Origin: Candidatus Eisenbacteria bacterium
GTDB taxonomy: Bacteria; Eisenbacteria; RBG-16-71-46; SZUA-252
Direction: 5' to 3'
Assembly (NCBI GenBank): GCA_035712245.1
Contig: DASTBC010000060.1
Location: 1 to 36,420, forward strand
Length of the DNA: 36,420 nt
Part shown: piece by piece, positions 24,087 to 30,708 of the stretch
Layout: each line of letters starts with the position of its first letter
How positions within the stretch are numbered: the stretch's first letter is position 1
Made by a program: the position numbers and the translations under genes
Notes under the pieces: generated by a model
What the model was told of the DNA's origin: nothing
Database searches by the model: none
What the model saw: only the letters and a program-made list of their open reading frames with translations

Positions 24087-24142
24087 GGACGCTCCTATCC
24101 GGCGGTTGCCGTTGGCATGGTTACGGCCCCCCCGCGCCCGGC

Positions 24143-24244
24143 TCGGGTCCGTGGAATCCGCGGCACATCGAGTCGATCACTGACCGCTGCTACCTTCCGG
24201 TCCTGACGGGGTTCGTGACTCTCGATTGCGCGGGAACGGACCGT
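24143..24244 (-). ncRNA. ffs: Bacterial small signal recognition particle RNA
   Basis: The minus strand carries the SRP helix-8 signature: a GGAA tetraloop closed by ACC/GGT, flanked by GTCAGG and AGCAGCGGTCA. The 5' GGTCCGT (24242-24236) pairs with ACGGACC near 24146-24152, giving a hairpin of about 100 nt, with further pairing of ATCGAG with CTCGAT. This RNA binds Ffh and targets membrane proteins. Its location next to dnaX-ybaB-recR matches the order known in Firmicutes and others. The ends are estimated to within a few nt. Confidence 0.9.
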
Positions 24245-24316
24245 CAACGCCAAGCCACGAGGAGGCCAGTGCCGGGTCTCCGAGGCCCGTGGGCCAGGGC
24301 CTGCTGCGTCAAGGGG

Positions 24317-24392
24317 TGGTGGAGATGACCGGGATCGAACCGGTGACCTCCTCGTTGCGAACGAGGCGCTCTCCCAACTGAGCTACATCCCC
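24317..24392 (-). tRNA. tRNA-Ala (anticodon CGC), CCA encoded
   Basis: The cloverleaf on the minus strand has acceptor GGGGATG with CATCTCC, D-arm TAGCTCAGTTGGGAGAGC, anticodon stem CCTCG/CGAGG around TTCGCAA (anticodon CGC) and a standard T-arm GGTTCGATCCC. An encoded CCA follows discriminator A. It lies about 70 nt upstream of ffs and reads GCG, a codon expected to be frequent in this GC-rich genome. Confidence 0.95.
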
Positions 24393-24414
24393 ACACGTTC
24401 TCGCGTTGCGTTAC

Positions 24415-24504
24415 TGGCGGAGAGAGAGGGATTCGAACCCTCGAAGCACTTTCATGCTTACACGGTTTCCAACCGTGCTCCTTCAGCCACTCGGACATCT
24501 CTCC
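24415..24504 (-). tRNA. tRNA-Ser (anticodon GGA), CCA encoded
   Basis: A class II tRNA with long variable arm. Acceptor GGAGAGA pairs with TCTCTCC, anticodon stem CACGG/CCGTG surrounds TTGGAAA (anticodon GGA), the variable arm forms a hairpin around AAGCATGAAAGTGCTT, and the T-arm GGGTTCGAATCCC is standard. Discriminator G and an encoded CCA follow. Confidence 0.95.
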
Positions 24505-24577
24505 GGGAAGGCATACGATATGCGCGCCTCCCGGCCGCGGTCGATGCCGGACCGGGCCCGCGCGCCCTACCTCAAGA

Positions 24578-24667
<90 letters not shown>

Positions 24668-24692: not shown

Positions 24693-25175
24693 TCAGTTTT
24701 CCAGGCGGTTGATGGCCCGGCGCCGCTCCCGGAAGAACCGCTGCAAGAGCTCCGCGGCCTCCTCGGCGAGCACCCCCGAAACCACTTCGACGCGGTGATT
24801 CAGGCGGAGATCCTGGGGCACCATGGCGAGCGAGCCGCATGCGCCCGCCTTGGGGTCGAGCGCCCCGAAGACGAGCCGGGCGATCCGCGCGAGCACGATG
24901 GCCCCCGCGCACATGTGGCAGGGCTCCAGGGTGACGTAGAGGACGGCTTCGTCCAGCCGCCAGGTCTTGACGGTCTGGGCGGCGGCACCGATCGCGAGGA
25001 TCTCGGCGTGGGCGGTGGGGTCCTGGGTGGTCTCGACCCGGTTGTGCCCGCGGCCGACGATCCGGTTCCCCCAAACGACGACCGCCCCGATGGGAACCTC
25101 TCCCTCCGAGGCGGCGGCTTCGGCCTCGGCGAGCGCGGCTTCCATGAAGCGCTCGTCCAGGCCCTCCGGCGTCAC
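24693..25175 (-). CDS. tadA: tRNA-specific adenosine deaminase
   Basis: A 160-residue TadA that deaminates A34 to inosine in tRNA-Arg(ACG). Zinc and catalytic motifs are TAHAEILAI (His and catalytic Glu) and EPCHMCAGAIVLARI (two Cys). The N-terminal FMEAALAEAEAAASEGEVP and GNRIVGRGHNRVE are typical. The start is a GTG overlapping the upstream stop (GTGA); the longer upstream frame is a shadow. Its substrate tRNA-Arg(ACG) is encoded about 760 nt upstream on the same strand. Confidence 0.95.
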   Translation of the reverse strand: MTPEGLDERFMEAALAEAEAAASEGEVPIGAVVVWGNRIVGRGHNRVETTQDPTAHAEILAIGAAAQTVKTWRLDEAVLYVTLEPCHMCAGAIVLARIARLVFGALDPKAGACGSLAMVPQDLRLNHRVEVVSGVLAEEAAELLQRFFRERRRAINRLEN

Positions 25176-25837
25176 TTCTTCTGTTTCTGCTGCGGGAAGT
25201 TCTTGAAGGCGCTCCGGACGAGGTCGGCCGCGACGTCCTCGTACCGGGGCGGATCCGTCACGTTCCGGGACTGGATGTAGCCGGTCTCGTCGTAGTTCAC
25301 CGTGCCGCTCGAGACGTCGATCTCCTGCGCGAACCGCTGCTCCCGGGGCTCGCGCCACCAGGTCTTCTTCCCGGATTTCAGATCGAAGAGGGCGAACTGG
25401 AGACCCACGGTGGTATTCGACTCGCCCCGCCCGATCGTGTTCACGCGGGTGTTCTCCCACTCCGTGATCTTCACGAAGAGGAGGGCGTCGGACATGACGA
25501 TCTCGTCGAGACCCGCGGCCGCGGTCGAGTCGAGCGTGCCGTAGTCGGACCAGGTGTTGAGGAGCACGTCTCCGCGCTCCGTGGCCTCGCGGTCCGAGAG
25601 GAGGCGCTCCGTGTCCGCCGGGTAGAGGAACGTGGCCCGCTCCGCGGGCACCTCCTTGAGCCGGTCGCGGAGGATGTCGAGCATGATCTTCGGGGCGCCC
25701 ACCTCGGGCGAGCTGTTCAGGACGGGCATGATCGCGACCCGCAGGCCCTTCGCCTTCTCGTCGGCCCTTGCCGGAGCCACGGCCACGAGGAGGAACGCCA
25801 GTACCGCGAGCGGAGGAAACCAGTTCGAACGTGACAT
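25172..25837 (-). CDS. Exported protein of unknown function, resembling DUF799/GNA1162-type lipoproteins
   Basis: A 221-residue protein with a signal peptide (FPPLAVLAFLLVAVAPARAD) but no lipobox Cys. The mature part starts VAIMPVLNSSPEVGAPKIML and contains LLFVKITEWENT, GLQFALFDLKSGKKTWWRE and a C-terminal AADLVRSAFKNFP. This resembles periplasmic DUF799-like proteins (CsgG/TolB-like fold), but the match is from memory and weak. The internal ATG with GAGGT upstream is preferred over an ATG 17 codons earlier. It overlaps tadA by 4 nt although no functional link is evident. Confidence 0.75.
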   Translation of the reverse strand: MSRSNWFPPLAVLAFLLVAVAPARADEKAKGLRVAIMPVLNSSPEVGAPKIMLDILRDRLKEVPAERATFLYPADTERLLSDREATERGDVLLNTWSDYGTLDSTAAAGLDEIVMSDALLFVKITEWENTRVNTIGRGESNTTVGLQFALFDLKSGKKTWWREPREQRFAQEIDVSSGTVNYDETGYIQSRNVTDPPRYEDVAADLVRSAFKNFPQQKQKK

Positions 25838-25936
25838 GTCGTCGTTACCTCGTGCGGGGCAGTCCAAGGGTGCGGAGACGGGGGGCACTCATCCTATGAG
25901 TACGACAGCGGGACCGCTGGGTTTCGTTGGAAATGG

Positions 25937-26013
25937 TGGCGCGCCCAGGAGGATTTGAACCCCCAACCTTCTGATCCGTAGTCAGACACTCTATCCAGTT
26001 GAGCTATGGGCGC
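25937..26013 (-). tRNA. tRNA-Arg (anticodon ACG), CCA encoded
   Basis: The cloverleaf has acceptor GCGCCCA with TGGGCGC, D-arm GCTCAACTGGATAGAGT, anticodon stem TCTGA/TCAGA around CTACGGA (anticodon ACG) and a T-loop TTCAAAT. Discriminator G and CCA are encoded. A34 is the expected target of TadA, whose gene lies one gene downstream. Confidence 0.96.
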
Positions 26014-26039
26014 GCGCAAGGCGCTGATCGATCATGGGA

Positions 26040-26131
26040 TGGCGGAGAGGAGAGGATTCGAACCTCCGGACCGGTATTACCCAGTCAACCGCTTAGCAGG
26101 CGGCTGCCTTCAGCCACTCGGCCACCTCTCC
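26040..26131 (-). tRNA. tRNA-Ser (anticodon GCT), CCA encoded
   Basis: A class II tRNA with acceptor GGAGAGG/CCTCTCC, anticodon loop CTGCTAA (anticodon GCT), a long variable arm (GACTGGGTAATACCGGTC) and a T-arm GGAGGTTCGAATCCTCT. Discriminator G and encoded CCA follow. It ends 26 nt from tRNA-Arg(ACG), so the two are probably one transcript. Confidence 0.95.
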
Positions 26132-26220: not shown

Positions 26221-27150
26221 TCAAGGGGTTCCCACGGAGCGGCCGGGCTCGCTGCCGGACGGCTCCACGTGGATCGTCACCTCCACGACCTGAGGAACGT
26301 GGCGCTGCACGTCCTCTTTGACGTCGTGCGCGAGCGCGTGACTCACCCGGACCGACATCTCCGGGTCGACCTCCATGTGCATGTCCGCCACGTAATAGAG
26401 GCCCATCTTGCGCAGGAACAGCTTCTCGACGCGGTGCACCTCCGGCCGGGTCTCGGCCACGCGGCGCACCTCCTCGGTCAGGTCGGGAGCCGCGCTCGTG
26501 TCCATGAGCTCCTCGACCGAGGGTTTGAGGAGCCGCCAGCCGGTCAGGAGGATGATCCCGCTCGCGAAGAGCGCGGCCCAGTCGTCGGCGGCGGCCCAGC
26601 CCGGCCCTCCGAGGAGCGCGATCGTGATCCCGACCGCGGCCGCGCCGGAGGTGATCGCGTCGCTCCGCTGGTGCCAGGCATCCGTCCGGACCGCGTGGCT
26701 CCCGGTCTCGTGGCTCACGCGGGCCATCCGCCGGAAGAGGATCTCCTTCACCAGCACGACCACGAGCACCACGGCGAGCGTGAAGGGCTCCGGGCTCTGG
26801 TGCGGCACGACGATCTGGTGGACCGACTCGACCGCGATCCCGATCGCGGCGGCGAAGAGGAGCACGGCGACGAGCGCAGCCGCGAGCGGCTCGGCCTTGC
26901 CGTGGCCGTAGGGGTGGTCGCTGTCGGGAGGCTTCGAGGCGACGTGGAGCGCGCGCCACACGATGAGGGAGCCGACCGAGTCACCGAGGGATTCCACCGC
27001 GTCGGCGACGAGCGCCTGGCTGTGTCCCAGCACCCCCGCGACGAGCTTCCCGCCACCCAGGACGAGATTCACCAGGAGCCCGACCGCGCTGGCGCGCTTT
27101 CCCCGGACGTAGCTCCCCGCGTGGATCGGGTGCGTGGTGCGTAGCGGCAT
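26221..27150 (-). CDS. Cation diffusion facilitator (CDF) metal efflux transporter
   Basis: A 309-residue CDF protein. Six membrane segments fit the family (for example ASAVGLLVNLVLGGGKLVAG and EPLAAALVAVLLFAAAIGI). The transport-site motifs are E53-SLG-D57 in helix 2 and H160-QRS-D164 in helix 5, so the first site has Glu where YiiP has Asp. HPYGHGKAE lies between helices 2 and 3. The cytosolic C-terminal domain has VEKLFLRKMGLYYVADMHME and VTIHVEP. Substrate may be Zn, Fe, Mn or similar. The ATG overlaps the stop of the M48-like gene by 1 nt (TGATG-type junction), so they are coupled. A longer upstream frame is a shadow. Confidence 0.92.
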   Translation of the reverse strand: MPLRTTHPIHAGSYVRGKRASAVGLLVNLVLGGGKLVAGVLGHSQALVADAVESLGDSVGSLIVWRALHVASKPPDSDHPYGHGKAEPLAAALVAVLLFAAAIGIAVESVHQIVVPHQSPEPFTLAVVLVVVLVKEILFRRMARVSHETGSHAVRTDAWHQRSDAITSGAAAVGITIALLGGPGWAAADDWAALFASGIILLTGWRLLKPSVEELMDTSAAPDLTEEVRRVAETRPEVHRVEKLFLRKMGLYYVADMHMEVDPEMSVRVSHALAHDVKEDVQRHVPQVVEVTIHVEPSGSEPGRSVGTP

Positions 27151-27977
27151 CAGTCGACGGCCGCCGCGGAGTCCGCGGGATCGTGCTCTTCCATCTCGTC
27201 CGCGTGGTCGGGCGATTCGGGCGGCTCGGGCGCGAACCATCGCCCCAAGGTCAGCGTGCTCGGAATGCCCTGCGCGTAGGTCCGCGCGATGGCCTCGTTG
27301 AGGAGCTTCCTTCGATCCTCGGGAAAGGGGTGGCGGAGCGAGAACCCTCGCCCGCCGCCCAGGCGCGTCGCCTCTTCCGCGACGCGCAGGAGCTCGATCA
27401 ACGCCCTCGGGTCGTATCCGGCGTTCCCGAGGAGCCGCACGGAGAGCGTGTCGGCCTCGGTCTCTTCCTCGACTCCGTACGTACGATCCAGCACGCGCCG
27501 CACGGCGCCGGCGGTGGTGTCGGCGCGAGTGAAGGGCTTCACGGTATGCCGCGCGAGCACGTGCGCGACCTGATGGGCGAGCACGCCCGCGAGCTGCGCC
27601 TCGTTCTCGAGCCGTTCCAGGAGACCACGCGTGAGGAAGATGTGGCCTCCGGGGAGCGCGTAGGCTTCGGCCAGTGCCGTATCGGCGAGGACGTGGAACT
27701 GGAACCGATACGTGCTACCGCCCGCCACGGCCGCCCCCGCGATCCGGTCACCCGCGGCCGTGACCATTCCCTGCGCGTCGGTGTCCGGATCCAGACCTCC
27801 CAGCTGCTGGGACATCCAGGGAGCCATGTGGGTCCCGAGCGCCGACTCGTCCTCCGGGGTCATCTCGACCGGCAGCACCCTGCCCGAGTATGGGTTCTTC
27901 TGGCTCATCGCCAGGATCACGACGACCAGGCCTGCCAGGATCACTCCGAACACGATGAGGCCGCGCTTCATCAGCAC
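27150..27977 (-). CDS. M48-family-like membrane-anchored protein with altered active site (HQVAH)
   Basis: A 275-residue protein with an N-terminal membrane anchor or signal (GLIVFGVILAGLVVVILAM) and an M48 peptidase domain. The domain has AEAYALPGGHIFLTRGLLERL, then LAGVLAHQVAHVLARH, and the downstream ligand segment EEETEADTLSVRLLGNAGYDP. The zinc ligands His135, His139 and Glu174 are kept, but residue 136 is Gln (CAG) where the family has the catalytic Glu (GAG). If the sequence is right the protein is probably a poor or dead protease and may act as a chaperone or binding protein. The C-terminal tail is acidic. A GGAGGTG ribosome site precedes the ATG. Confidence 0.9.
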   Translation of the reverse strand: MLMKRGLIVFGVILAGLVVVILAMSQKNPYSGRVLPVEMTPEDESALGTHMAPWMSQQLGGLDPDTDAQGMVTAAGDRIAGAAVAGGSTYRFQFHVLADTALAEAYALPGGHIFLTRGLLERLENEAQLAGVLAHQVAHVLARHTVKPFTRADTTAGAVRRVLDRTYGVEEETEADTLSVRLLGNAGYDPRALIELLRVAEEATRLGGGRGFSLRHPFPEDRRKLLNEAIARTYAQGIPSTLTLGRWFAPEPPESPDHADEMEEHDPADSAAAVD

Positions 27978-28096
27978 CTCCGATCCGGGCGCCCGGGGGC
28001 CCCGTGTCGGATCAGGGAATCAGGTTGCGGCGGCGAGGGAAAGGGAAAAGGTCGCCGCGCTTGTGTCTCCTCCGTCGTCTCCCTCACACTTCACTC

Positions 28097-28582
28097 GTGG
28101 AACGGATACGGGTCCGGCCTGCCGTCGCGGAGGATGCGGCGGCGGTGGCGCGCATGGGGAATGCCCTGAACCGCGAGCTCGGGGTGGACGTCGAGTCCTT
28201 CACGACGGAGCGAATCCTCGAGGACGGGTTCGGCGCGGCTCCCAAGTTCTCGCTGCTCGTTGCGGAGATGGGCGGAGTCCCCGCCGGCTATGCCCTCTAC
28301 CACGCATCCTACGACTCGGATATCGCGGCGCCGTCCCTCTGGCTGGTGGATCTCTATGTCGAGGAGCGCGCGCGACGGGCCGGTGCGGGGCGAGCCCTCA
28401 TGCGCGCTCTCGCTCGGGAGGCGCTTCGATCGGGCGCGAGAACGGTCGCGTGGTGCGTCCAGGACCGGAACGAGCGCGCGATCGCGTTCTATCGTGCGCT
28501 GGGGGCCCCCGGGCTCCCCGTTCACGTCATGGAGCTCCGTGACGAGAAGCTGAGCGCTCTGGCGGACGGAACCTCGCCGTGA
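28097..28582 (+). CDS. GNAT family N-acetyltransferase
   Basis: A 161-residue acetyltransferase. The family order is seen: N-terminal RVRPAVAEDAAAVARM, central VAEMGGVPAGYALYHASYD, motif A WLVDLYVEERARRAGAGRAL (acetyl-CoA binding R-R-A-G-A-G) and motif B NERAIAFYRALGA. It resembles the diamine/spermidine N-acetyltransferase branch, but substrate cannot be stated. The GTG at MERIRVRP is preferred over an upstream ATG (28004) that would add 31 basic residues lying in the divergent promoter region. The stop overlaps the next gene (GTGA). Confidence 0.88.
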   Translation: MERIRVRPAVAEDAAAVARMGNALNRELGVDVESFTTERILEDGFGAAPKFSLLVAEMGGVPAGYALYHASYDSDIAAPSLWLVDLYVEERARRAGAGRALMRALAREALRSGARTVAWCVQDRNERAIAFYRALGAPGLPVHVMELRDEKLSALADGTSP

Positions 28583-28884
28583 GGACCATCCCCGACGACC
28601 GGCGGCGGCTGGCGCGCGTGATCGCGCTCGCGGTGGACGCGCTCCAGATCGCGATCCTTCCGCTCCTCTTCCCCGGGAGCCCGTGGAACCACGCGATCGA
28701 CGTCGTCACCGGCGGGGTGATGGTCTGGCTCCTCGGCTGGCACATCGCGTTCCTGCCGACCTTCCTCACCGAGCTGGTCCCCTTCGTCGATCTCTTCCCC
28801 ACCTGGACCGTTGCCGTGCTCTACGTGACCCGAAGGAAGAAGAGCCCTCCGGCACCGGACGGCTCGAAAGGAGTGATTCCATGA
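28579..28884 (+). CDS. Small integral membrane protein, unknown function
   Basis: A 101-residue protein that I do not recognise. Three hydrophobic segments are visible (VIALAVDALQIAILPLLF, VVTGGVMVWLLGWHIAFLP, LFPTWTVAVLYV), with a basic, Pro-rich C-terminal tail. The GTG start overlaps the GNAT stop as GTGA, and its own stop overlaps the start of the next gene by 4 nt (ATGA), so three genes are coupled. Real coding is supported by these junctions and by the hydrophobic pattern. Confidence 0.75.
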   Translation: MRTIPDDRRRLARVIALAVDALQIAILPLLFPGSPWNHAIDVVTGGVMVWLLGWHIAFLPTFLTELVPFVDLFPTWTVAVLYVTRRKKSPPAPDGSKGVIP

Positions 28885-29801
28885 TCGGTCGTGCCCTCGG
28901 CTTCTTCGTCACCGCCGCCTTGGCGGGTGCCGCCGGCGCCGCGCCTTCCGCGCTCGCGCAAGGCAACGATCTCTCCAAGGTGACGATCCAGACCGAGAAG
29001 CTCGCGGACGGAGTCGCGATGCTCCAGGGCGCCGGAGGGAACATCGGCGTTTCCTACGGCGCGGACGGGCCGGTTCTCGTCGACGACCAGTTCGCGCCGC
29101 TCACGTCCAAGATCCGCGCGGCCGTCTCGGTGTTGAGCCCGAAGCCGATCCGGTTCGTCCTGAACACCCACTGGCACCCGGACCACGTCGGCGGGAACGA
29201 GAACCTCGGCAAGGGCGGCGTCGCCATCGTCGCGCACGAGAACGTCCGAAAGCGGATGTCCGTGGGCCGCGCCGCGACCGAGCTGCGCGGAGCCGTGCCT
29301 CCGGCCACGAAGGAGGCGCTCCCGGTCGTCACGTTCACCTCGGACGTGACCTTCCACTGGAATGGCGACTCGATCCACGTGTTCCACGTCGGCCCCGCGC
29401 ACACGGACGGAGACGCGATGGTGCACTTCACGCGCGCGAACGTGCTCCACATGGGGGATGTGTTCTTCAACGGGAACTACCCGTTCGTGGACGTGTCGAG
29501 CGGCGGGTCGTTCCTCGGATATCTCGCGGCCGTGGACCGGGCGATGGCTCTGGTGAATGACCGCACGCGGATCATCCCGGGGCACGGTCCCGCGGGAGAT
29601 CGCGCGGCGCTCGTGAAGTACCGCGAGATGCTCGTCGGCGTGCGCGAGGCGGTGCAGGCGCTCGTCACCGCGGGCAAGACCGCGGACGAGGCGGTCGCGG
29701 CGAAGCCGACGGCGGCATGGGATCCGGCGTGGGGCGGAGGATTCATCAAGGGCGACGCGCTCACGCGGACGGTGTTCGAGGAGCTCGCCCGGAAGAAGTA
29801 G
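28881..29801 (+). CDS. Exported metallo-beta-lactamase-fold hydrolase
   Basis: A 306-residue MBL-fold enzyme with a signal peptide ending near ALAQG. The metal site motifs are THWHPDHVGG (His97, His99, Asp101, His102), the second-shell HTDGD, GDVFFNG (bridging Asp) and IPGHGP (last His), so a binuclear site is complete. The layout resembles periplasmic MBL proteins related to class B beta-lactamases or quinoprotein relay enzymes; the substrate is unknown and resistance should not be assumed. The ATG has AAGGAG upstream. It overlaps the preceding small membrane protein gene by 4 nt, and its 3' end overlaps the convergent hydrolase gene by 41 nt. Confidence 0.9.
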   Translation: MIGRALGFFVTAALAGAAGAAPSALAQGNDLSKVTIQTEKLADGVAMLQGAGGNIGVSYGADGPVLVDDQFAPLTSKIRAAVSVLSPKPIRFVLNTHWHPDHVGGNENLGKGGVAIVAHENVRKRMSVGRAATELRGAVPPATKEALPVVTFTSDVTFHWNGDSIHVFHVGPAHTDGDAMVHFTRANVLHMGDVFFNGNYPFVDVSSGGSFLGYLAAVDRAMALVNDRTRIIPGHGPAGDRAALVKYREMLVGVREAVQALVTAGKTADEAVAAKPTAAWDPAWGGGFIKGDALTRTVFEELARKK

Positions 29802-30708
29802 CGCTCGGTCGCCGCGTTCGGCGAGAGGTGCGGCGCTCGGGGACGAGCGCGATCGCGCTGCTCGCGCGCCACGCCGCGGCCAGGTGATCCGCGATCGTCT
29901 CCGCGACCGAGCGGCTTCCCCAGTACGCCGTGTGCGAGAGCGGCGTCCAGCGCGTGAGGAGGGACCCCACGTCCACCGCGCGATCCTCCGTCACGGCCTT
30001 CCGGTACTTCGCGTTCAAACCACGCAGCGGATATCCGATCACGTCATCCGGATCGTAGACGTTGATCCACCTTCCGTGGAGCCCCGGATGGTGCCGCTCG
30101 AGGCACGGCATCCGGACCGGCTCGCCGAATCGCGGATAGCGCAGACTCCAGAGCGCGATCGGGCTCCCCATCGTGACGAGGAGCGCGAGCGTCTCCCCTC
30201 GCTCGAGCGGCGTGCCGTTGATGCGCTCGCGGACACACTCCCCCATGAAGGAGCCGCGCCGCTTCATCAGGTCGTAGAGATAGTTGCTGGCGATCACGGT
30301 CCCCAGGCTGTGCGCGATGACGCAGAGCGGCGCGCGCGCCCCAGCGCGCGCGGCGAGGCTCGCGAGCGAATCGGCCACGACCTCGTGGATGGCGTCGTAG
30401 GCCGAACGATCGTGCGGCGACGGCTGGTACGCGATCGCGTCCCCGGCGAAGTGGACCATGAAGTCACGGAGCCGTCCGTACCGGAGGGGTCCGTCCTCGT
30501 GGACGCGTCTCCAGAGCTCGGCCTCGGGGCGGCTCAGCGCGGGGCTCCAGTTCACCTCCTCGAAGACGAGCTCCTCCGTCACGTCCGTCTCCGGAACGCC
30601 CGCACCGGAAGCGAACGCCCGCAGGAGGGCGCTTCGCATCGGTTCGGAGTATCCGGGCTCGGTGCGTCCGATGCCGTGCAGGAAGGCGATCGCGAGCTTG
30701 TGCGGCAT
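29761..30708 (-). CDS. Alpha/beta-fold hydrolase (lipase/esterase-like)
   Basis: A 315-residue protein without signal peptide. The oxyanion-side start is LAIAFLHGIGR, the nucleophile elbow is IAHSLGT with Ser134, a likely acid is in NVYDPDDVIGYPL, and a candidate catalytic His is in TPLSHTAYW. The overall pattern is like PGAP1/serine-esterase-type hydrolases. Substrate is unknown. The start MPHKLAIAF is preceded by GGGGGA; a longer upstream frame is a shadow. The Arg-rich C-terminus overlaps the convergent MBL gene by 41 nt. Confidence 0.82.
   Translation of the reverse strand: MPHKLAIAFLHGIGRTEPGYSEPMRSALLRAFASGAGVPETDVTEELVFEEVNWSPALSRPEAELWRRVHEDGPLRYGRLRDFMVHFAGDAIAYQPSPHDRSAYDAIHEVVADSLASLAARAGARAPLCVIAHSLGTVIASNYLYDLMKRRGSFMGECVRERINGTPLERGETLALLVTMGSPIALWSLRYPRFGEPVRMPCLERHHPGLHGRWINVYDPDDVIGYPLRGLNAKYRKAVTEDRAVDVGSLLTRWTPLSHTAYWGSRSVAETIADHLAAAWRASSAIALVPERRTSRRTRRPSATSSGRAPRTPSA

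Follow-up and report, generated by a model that had tools for sequence, protein, structure and literature searches.

A stretch of 36,420 nucleotides from a Candidatus Eisenbacteria genome, here called the window, encodes a membrane-anchored protein of the M48 peptidase family in which the zinc-site motif HExxH reads HQVAH, with Gln in place of the general-base Glu. Judging from its sequence, the protein has very probably lost peptidase activity. On balance, and with modest confidence, we favour the reading that it is a lineage-specific M48 pseudoprotease that has been retained as a non-cutting polypeptide binder and probably still binds zinc. An earlier note on this DNA had described an open frame at 27,150–27,977 of the minus strand with HQVAH at residues 135–139, and had read Gln136 as the codon CAG at plus-strand positions 27,570–27,572; translation of the window bears out both statements (Table 1).

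Peptidase_M48 (PF01435) was the only Pfam match in the 275 residues of the window protein, scoring 74.5 bits against a cut-off of 20.3. Because a GGAGG ribosome-binding-like sequence overlaps the listed GTG start, the ATG at 27,969–27,971 (codon 3) is the likelier start and would give a protein of 273 residues; residue numbers throughout count from the GTG (275-residue version), as they did previously. The N-terminal membrane anchor proposed before is supported by hydropathy, with a Kyte–Doolittle 19-residue maximum of 2.99 at residue 6, and the positive residues preceding the anchor suggest that the body of the protein would be periplasmic and held at the inner membrane. Against the BepA equivalog model NF052400, the protein scored 68 bits, well under the cut-off of 570, and the C-terminal TPR domain of BepA was absent from its 275 residues in the Pfam search. 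The same genome encodes three further M48 proteins, all with HExxH.

Table 1. Positions of the M48 gene, its motifs and its neighbours in the window.
Feature	Position	Strand	Basis or remark
Predicted M48-type pseudoprotease, open reading frame	27150..27977	-	275 aa from GTG, 273 aa from ATG; PF01435
GGAGG ribosome-binding-like sequence	27977..27981	-	5 nt 5' of ATG, overlapping GTG
N-terminal membrane anchor	27906..27965	-	About residues 5-24, hydropathy; topology inferred
EAYALPGG (104-111), equivalent to the substrate edge-strand NAFALPGG	27645..27668	-	Alignment
HQVAH replacing HExxH, residues 135-139	27561..27575	-	Alignment with relatives
Putative active-site lid, shortened to 32 residues from HQVAH to Glu172	27465..27560	-	Lengths compared
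Glu172, third zinc ligand	27462..27464	-	Aligned to Glu of RxxExx(A/S)D
HPFPEDR (216-222), HPx4R active-site plug with fourth zinc ligand His216, kept	27312..27332	-	Alignment; PMC7950410
TGATG overlap	27148..27152	-	M48 stop and CDF ATG, one base in common
CDF cation-efflux transporter, downstream of M48	26221..27150	-	Kept in family genomes, not tied to M48 gene
Hydrolase-like gene, synteny marker	29761..30708	-	No Pfam match; label is a reading of the AHSLG motif

The zinc site is complete, although one of its ligands had been misplaced. His135 and His139 stand as previously assigned, but the third ligand is Glu172 rather than Glu174, since Glu172 falls in the Glu column of the RxxExx(A/S)D motif, which is Glu in 86 of 86 relatives and in all 218 aligned in a larger census. 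BepA is reported to bind zinc through H136, H140, E201 and H246, with HPx4R as an active-site plug (PMC7950410). Glu172 is the counterpart of BepA E201, and Glu174 is the variable residue preceding Ala-Asp. In an alignment made without a motif filter, the columns of His135, His139 and Glu172 were conserved in 86/86 relatives, and those matching His216, Pro217 and Arg222 in 85/85. The window protein thus keeps all four ligands (H135, H139, E172 and H216). Its H, H and E ligands and its HPx4R plug place it within M48, and it lacks two features of active M48 enzymes, namely the general-base Glu (Gln136 here) and a full-length lid. The stretch from motif to ligand Glu, 32 residues long here, measures 49–58 in 37 relatives; in BepA, the stretch from L146 to I194 is reported as unresolved in the structure and has been proposed to form an active-site lid (PMC7950410).

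The Gln is accompanied by further departures at otherwise conserved positions, which the earlier note did not mention, any more than the short lid or the kept fourth ligand and plug. Edge-strand Asn104, which is Asn in 86/86 relatives and in 215/218 in the larger census, is replaced by Glu. Val169, three residues before Glu172, stands where Arg occurs in 208/218 relatives in the larger census; since Val is found at this column in two other relatives, Val169 alone is not unique, and N104E and R169V are each rare rather than unique. Among 22 near-invariant positions (at least 98.5% conserved across the 86 relatives), the window protein keeps 17 and changes five: N104E, E136Q, R169V, G179S and L200A. 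It departs at 14 of 47 near-invariant columns, compared with at most 3 of about 50 in any of its 37 closest members, a set that was selected with an expression demanding HE; the conserved-position counts were repeated without the motif filter on the sets of 86 and 219 relatives.

The Gln was found in none of the M48 relatives that we collected. The searches covered 59 genomes around the window's own, 47 of its class and phylum, 385 spread genomes, 386 in the phylum of genome G369 and 343 in the phylum of genome G319, with the window's own genome counted where included. Genome and contig searches together yielded 38 distinct members of a short membrane-anchored M48 subfamily, all with HExxH; the edge-strand Asn and the Arg preceding the third ligand are likewise present in 38/38. 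Glu stood in HExxH throughout an initial set of 86 relatives, made up of the 38 subfamily members and 48 rows of other M48 proteins, with one place (L019, L070) counted twice. Enlarging the census to 219 distinct M48 relatives gave 218 with Glu, one with Met (L161) and none with Gln; duplicates, recognised by identity over a fixed stretch, were removed, and 17 of the 47 places from the 343-genome search in the phylum of G319 were left out of the counts.

We also searched the DNA of 349 genomes with an HQ pattern that demands A or G before the second His, V, I or M after it and His at the tenth position, and therefore misses other HQ variants; it occurred at 28 places in 25 genomes. The M48 profile scored 25 of the 28 frames (E ≤ 10), with 331 bits for the window and 12.7 for the best other frame, and no place other than the window's own was M48-like. 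The matching HE pattern was present in 58 of 146 genomes, counted without regard to M48 identity. We accordingly rejected the idea of a pseudoprotease subfamily with conserved Gln, which the earlier note had proposed to settle by aligning orthologues: Gln stands in 0/219 distinct relatives, and the close, syntenic orthologue L007, from genome G004, has HExxH, an outcome that the note itself had named as a refutation. The observation of HQVAH itself stands. Because no second species or strain with Gln was found among the relatives examined, retention by selection is not demonstrated.

The window protein has diverged strongly and on its own side. L007, from the same taxonomic family, is its nearest relative at 43% identity, and identity to the seven subfamily members in alignment A1 (a profile of eight rows, one of them the window protein) was 34–43%. 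L007 is 55% identical to L037, a Pseudomonadota record, which puts the acceleration on the window's side. Indeed, with L037 as outgroup, unique changes numbered 59 in the window protein and 19 in L007 (p = 6e-6), and the window protein was the faster of the two with each of the six outgroups tried. Its end branch, at 2.38, was the longest in the family tree (family median 0.22).

An AlphaFold2 model built from 5 sequences had a mean pLDDT of 64.6, with values below 50 at residues 147–163 and 208–217 (lid and plug), so that zinc-site geometry is not established by it. The best structural match was the Geobacter sulfurreducens M48 peptidase Q74D82 (PDB 3c37; Z 18.0, rmsd 3.0, 183 residues), closest in fold but with HExxH intact in the aligned sequence; BepA gave Z 17.7 (6ait) and 15.9, and other zincins about 8 and less. 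As modelled, the window protein has the M48 fold. The earlier statement that cleavage would be lost while the zinc site is kept finds support in the sequence, through the lost general base, the short lid and the kept ligands and plug, and preservation of the fold is indicated by the model.

Downstream, the gene adjoins that of a CDF cation-efflux transporter, to which the earlier note had called it coupled, and the two do overlap, with one base of TGATG shared. The two genes may be translationally coupled through TGATG, which does not imply a common metal function. About 41 kb separate the CDF and M48 genes in G004, the congener G001 has the CDF gene but no M48 gene, and we detected no CDF homologue in the six M48 neighbourhoods compared (L036–L039, L041 and L042). 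The suggested metal-binding role, which rested only on the CDF neighbour, is not supported by these arrangements.

In G004, the gene immediately upstream of the M48 orthologue is a homologue of the hydrolase-like gene; in G001, such a homologue is followed directly by the CDF gene, and no M48 remnant was found there. The simplest inference from these gene orders is that hydrolase-like, M48 and CDF would be the ancestral arrangement, with loss of the M48 gene in G001 and separation in G004. In the window, three plus-strand genes at 28,004–29,801 (a GNAT acetyltransferase, a small unmatched ORF and a metallo-beta-lactamase fold) lie between the hydrolase-like and M48 genes; none is there in G001 or G004. 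On the other side, the bacterial large SRP RNA (95.8 bits) and five tRNA genes (Ala, Ser, Ser, Arg, Ser) at 24,123–24,667 and 25,937–26,131 share a block with dnaX, tadA and the CDF gene; in G001, the protein genes of this stretch are collinear. A GNA1162-like gene occupies 25,175–25,888 (27.1 bits, cut-off 25.9), and in four of the five family loci that were compared its homologues stand next to the CDF gene. At 1,932–2,024, ARAGORN called a tRNA-Pyl with a CTA anticodon that had no Rfam match at the gathering score and is probably a false positive.

A second M48 protein lacking the catalytic Glu occurs in a genome of the window's taxonomic family. This protein, L161 (G005:C141:33000-35400, plus strand, frame from about base 892), carries HMMAH in a 277-codon M48 frame with a lipoprotein-like start. 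Its identity is 40% to a G001 protein with HEIAH but only 29% to the window protein over 142 residues, and its edge-strand Asn and its plug His and Arg are missing from the alignment. L161, which has Met rather than Gln, belongs to another M48 lineage, so the catalytic Glu was lost there separately. M48 rows without Glu, those of the window and L161, made up 2/18 in the window's family, against 0/53 in the rest of the phylum (Fisher p = 0.06) and 0/202 among all other rows (Fisher p = 0.006), an enrichment that is a hint only, because the comparison is post hoc and the rows are related and were gathered at different thresholds. L161 is compatible both with pseudoprotease formation and with gene decay.

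Decay of the window's own gene is quite possible, though we doubt it. The gene would then be that of a dispensable protease whose constraint has relaxed and whose catalytic and lid residues have drifted, its open frame being a remnant headed for the loss that the congeners already show. Such a history is in keeping with the strong acceleration and the 14 altered columns, with the direct junction of hydrolase-like and CDF genes in G001, and with L161, whose missing Glu, together with a plug His and Arg that do not align, shows that losses of this kind have happened more than once in the family. The distribution of the gene points the same way: a close match occurred in just one of six other family genomes and was absent from both congeners (G001, 95% complete; G002, 78% complete). 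Against it, the frame has neither stop nor frameshift despite the low identity to L007, and the chance of a stop-free frame under pure drift is about 0.06, a rough figure for about 137 changed codons. GC by codon position in this stop-free frame is 0.74/0.48/0.87, a contrast resembling that of neighbouring genes. Counting rather against retention, GC3 (0.868, against 0.935) and leave-one-out codon preference (0.353, against 0.525) are both lower than in the CDF gene, though within the span of the neighbours (0.242–0.525 for codon preference). The zinc ligands, plug, PGG and membrane anchor have also been retained. Each of these three points is suggestive only; the low no-stop chance and the coding-like composition favour, without settling on, a protein that is still under selection. 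We saw no sign of recent transfer of the gene, with one weak tblastn match in phage records and 42 plasmid records, all below 60% identity.

That an otherwise active protease has been misread through a sequencing or assembly error at 27,572, or through a chimera, is highly improbable. The assembly is in 312 contigs and CAG is one base from a Glu codon, but N104E, R169V, G179S, L200A and an in-frame shortening of the lid stand alongside the Gln, and the downstream genes are collinear with those of G001, so the contig is apparently sound here. With so many near-invariant columns changed, a true substitution is far likelier than a single-base error, and the worry voiced before over C against G is largely answered, the Gln being one of the 14 departures. 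An active zinc hydrolase, in which an alternative base or chemistry replaces Glu136, also strikes us as improbable. The four kept ligands would allow it, and Glu104, Glu170, Glu171 and Glu174 are near in sequence; yet Glu to Gln is the usual substitution by which BepA is made protease-dead (PMC7950410, PMC8423444), and the structure model is too weak for placing a substitute base.

We therefore return to a retained, non-cutting M48 protein as our preferred reading. The sequence shows an orthologue of a short membrane-anchored M48 peptidase that has lost its general-base Glu, edge-strand Asn, conserved Arg and much of its putative lid. The present protein would fold and bind zinc, yet fail to activate the catalytic water, so that no peptide is cleaved; its likeliest job, if any, would be to bind client polypeptides along the edge-strand and in a cleft less covered by the lid, without cutting them. 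Binding of this kind would resemble the weak chaperone-like activity that engineered BepA E137Q retains. BepA is reported as both a protease and an assembly helper, and its E137Q form as devoid of protease activity, accumulating and dominant-negative, keeping part of the chaperone-like activity without restoring the outer-membrane barrier (PMC7950410, PMC8423444). In E. coli, the E137Q protein is described as worsening outer-membrane defects instead of helping (PMC7950410), so a dead copy need not be useful. A bolder proposal, that the zinc site and His-switch plug are kept under selection, that the window protein is a periplasmic client binder and natural counterpart of BepA E137Q in which the chaperone-like half of M48 function has been parted from proteolysis, and that, L161 included, M48 pseudoproteases perhaps arose repeatedly in one family, is tentative and, taken as a whole, rather unlikely.

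The window protein resembles the short anchored M48 subfamily (L007, L008, L009, L036–L039 and others) in its anchor, NPxxG, LPGG, four ligands and HPx4R, and differs from it in the motif, edge-strand Asn and Arg that all 38 members have, and in lid length. With engineered BepA (YfgC of E. coli) E137Q it shares the replacement of Glu by Gln within an M48 zinc site that has a His-switch plug (PMC7950410, PMC8423444), whereas in natural BepA the Glu is present, the lid region is longer and there is a TPR domain. The mammalian M2 homologue ACE3 is likewise reported to carry HQxxH, but it belongs to another zincin family, and its Gln is common to four species (PMC1925091). Among zincins in which HExxH is substituted, ADAM and CLCA proteins included, the Glu is reported to be replaced most often by Gln; their roles are described as little understood, decoy or accessory functions having been suggested, and loss in the CLCAs was inferred to have occurred five times independently (PMC3650047). 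A natural bacterial M48 protein with HQxxH was not found in the open-access literature searched, though this argues only weakly for its absence. The M48 protein described in PMC8621943 has an intact motif, and the HQXXH passage in PMC7804941 concerns an M10A entry. Glu-to-Gln pseudoproteases of the zincin type are already known in other families, and the M48 instance would be a further variety of them.

If the preferred reading is true, pseudoproteases arise among M48 enzymes as they do among the ACE and ADAM zincins, and the non-proteolytic half of M48 function could be studied by itself. For this bacterial family, annotation of a protein as M48 need not imply an active peptidase.
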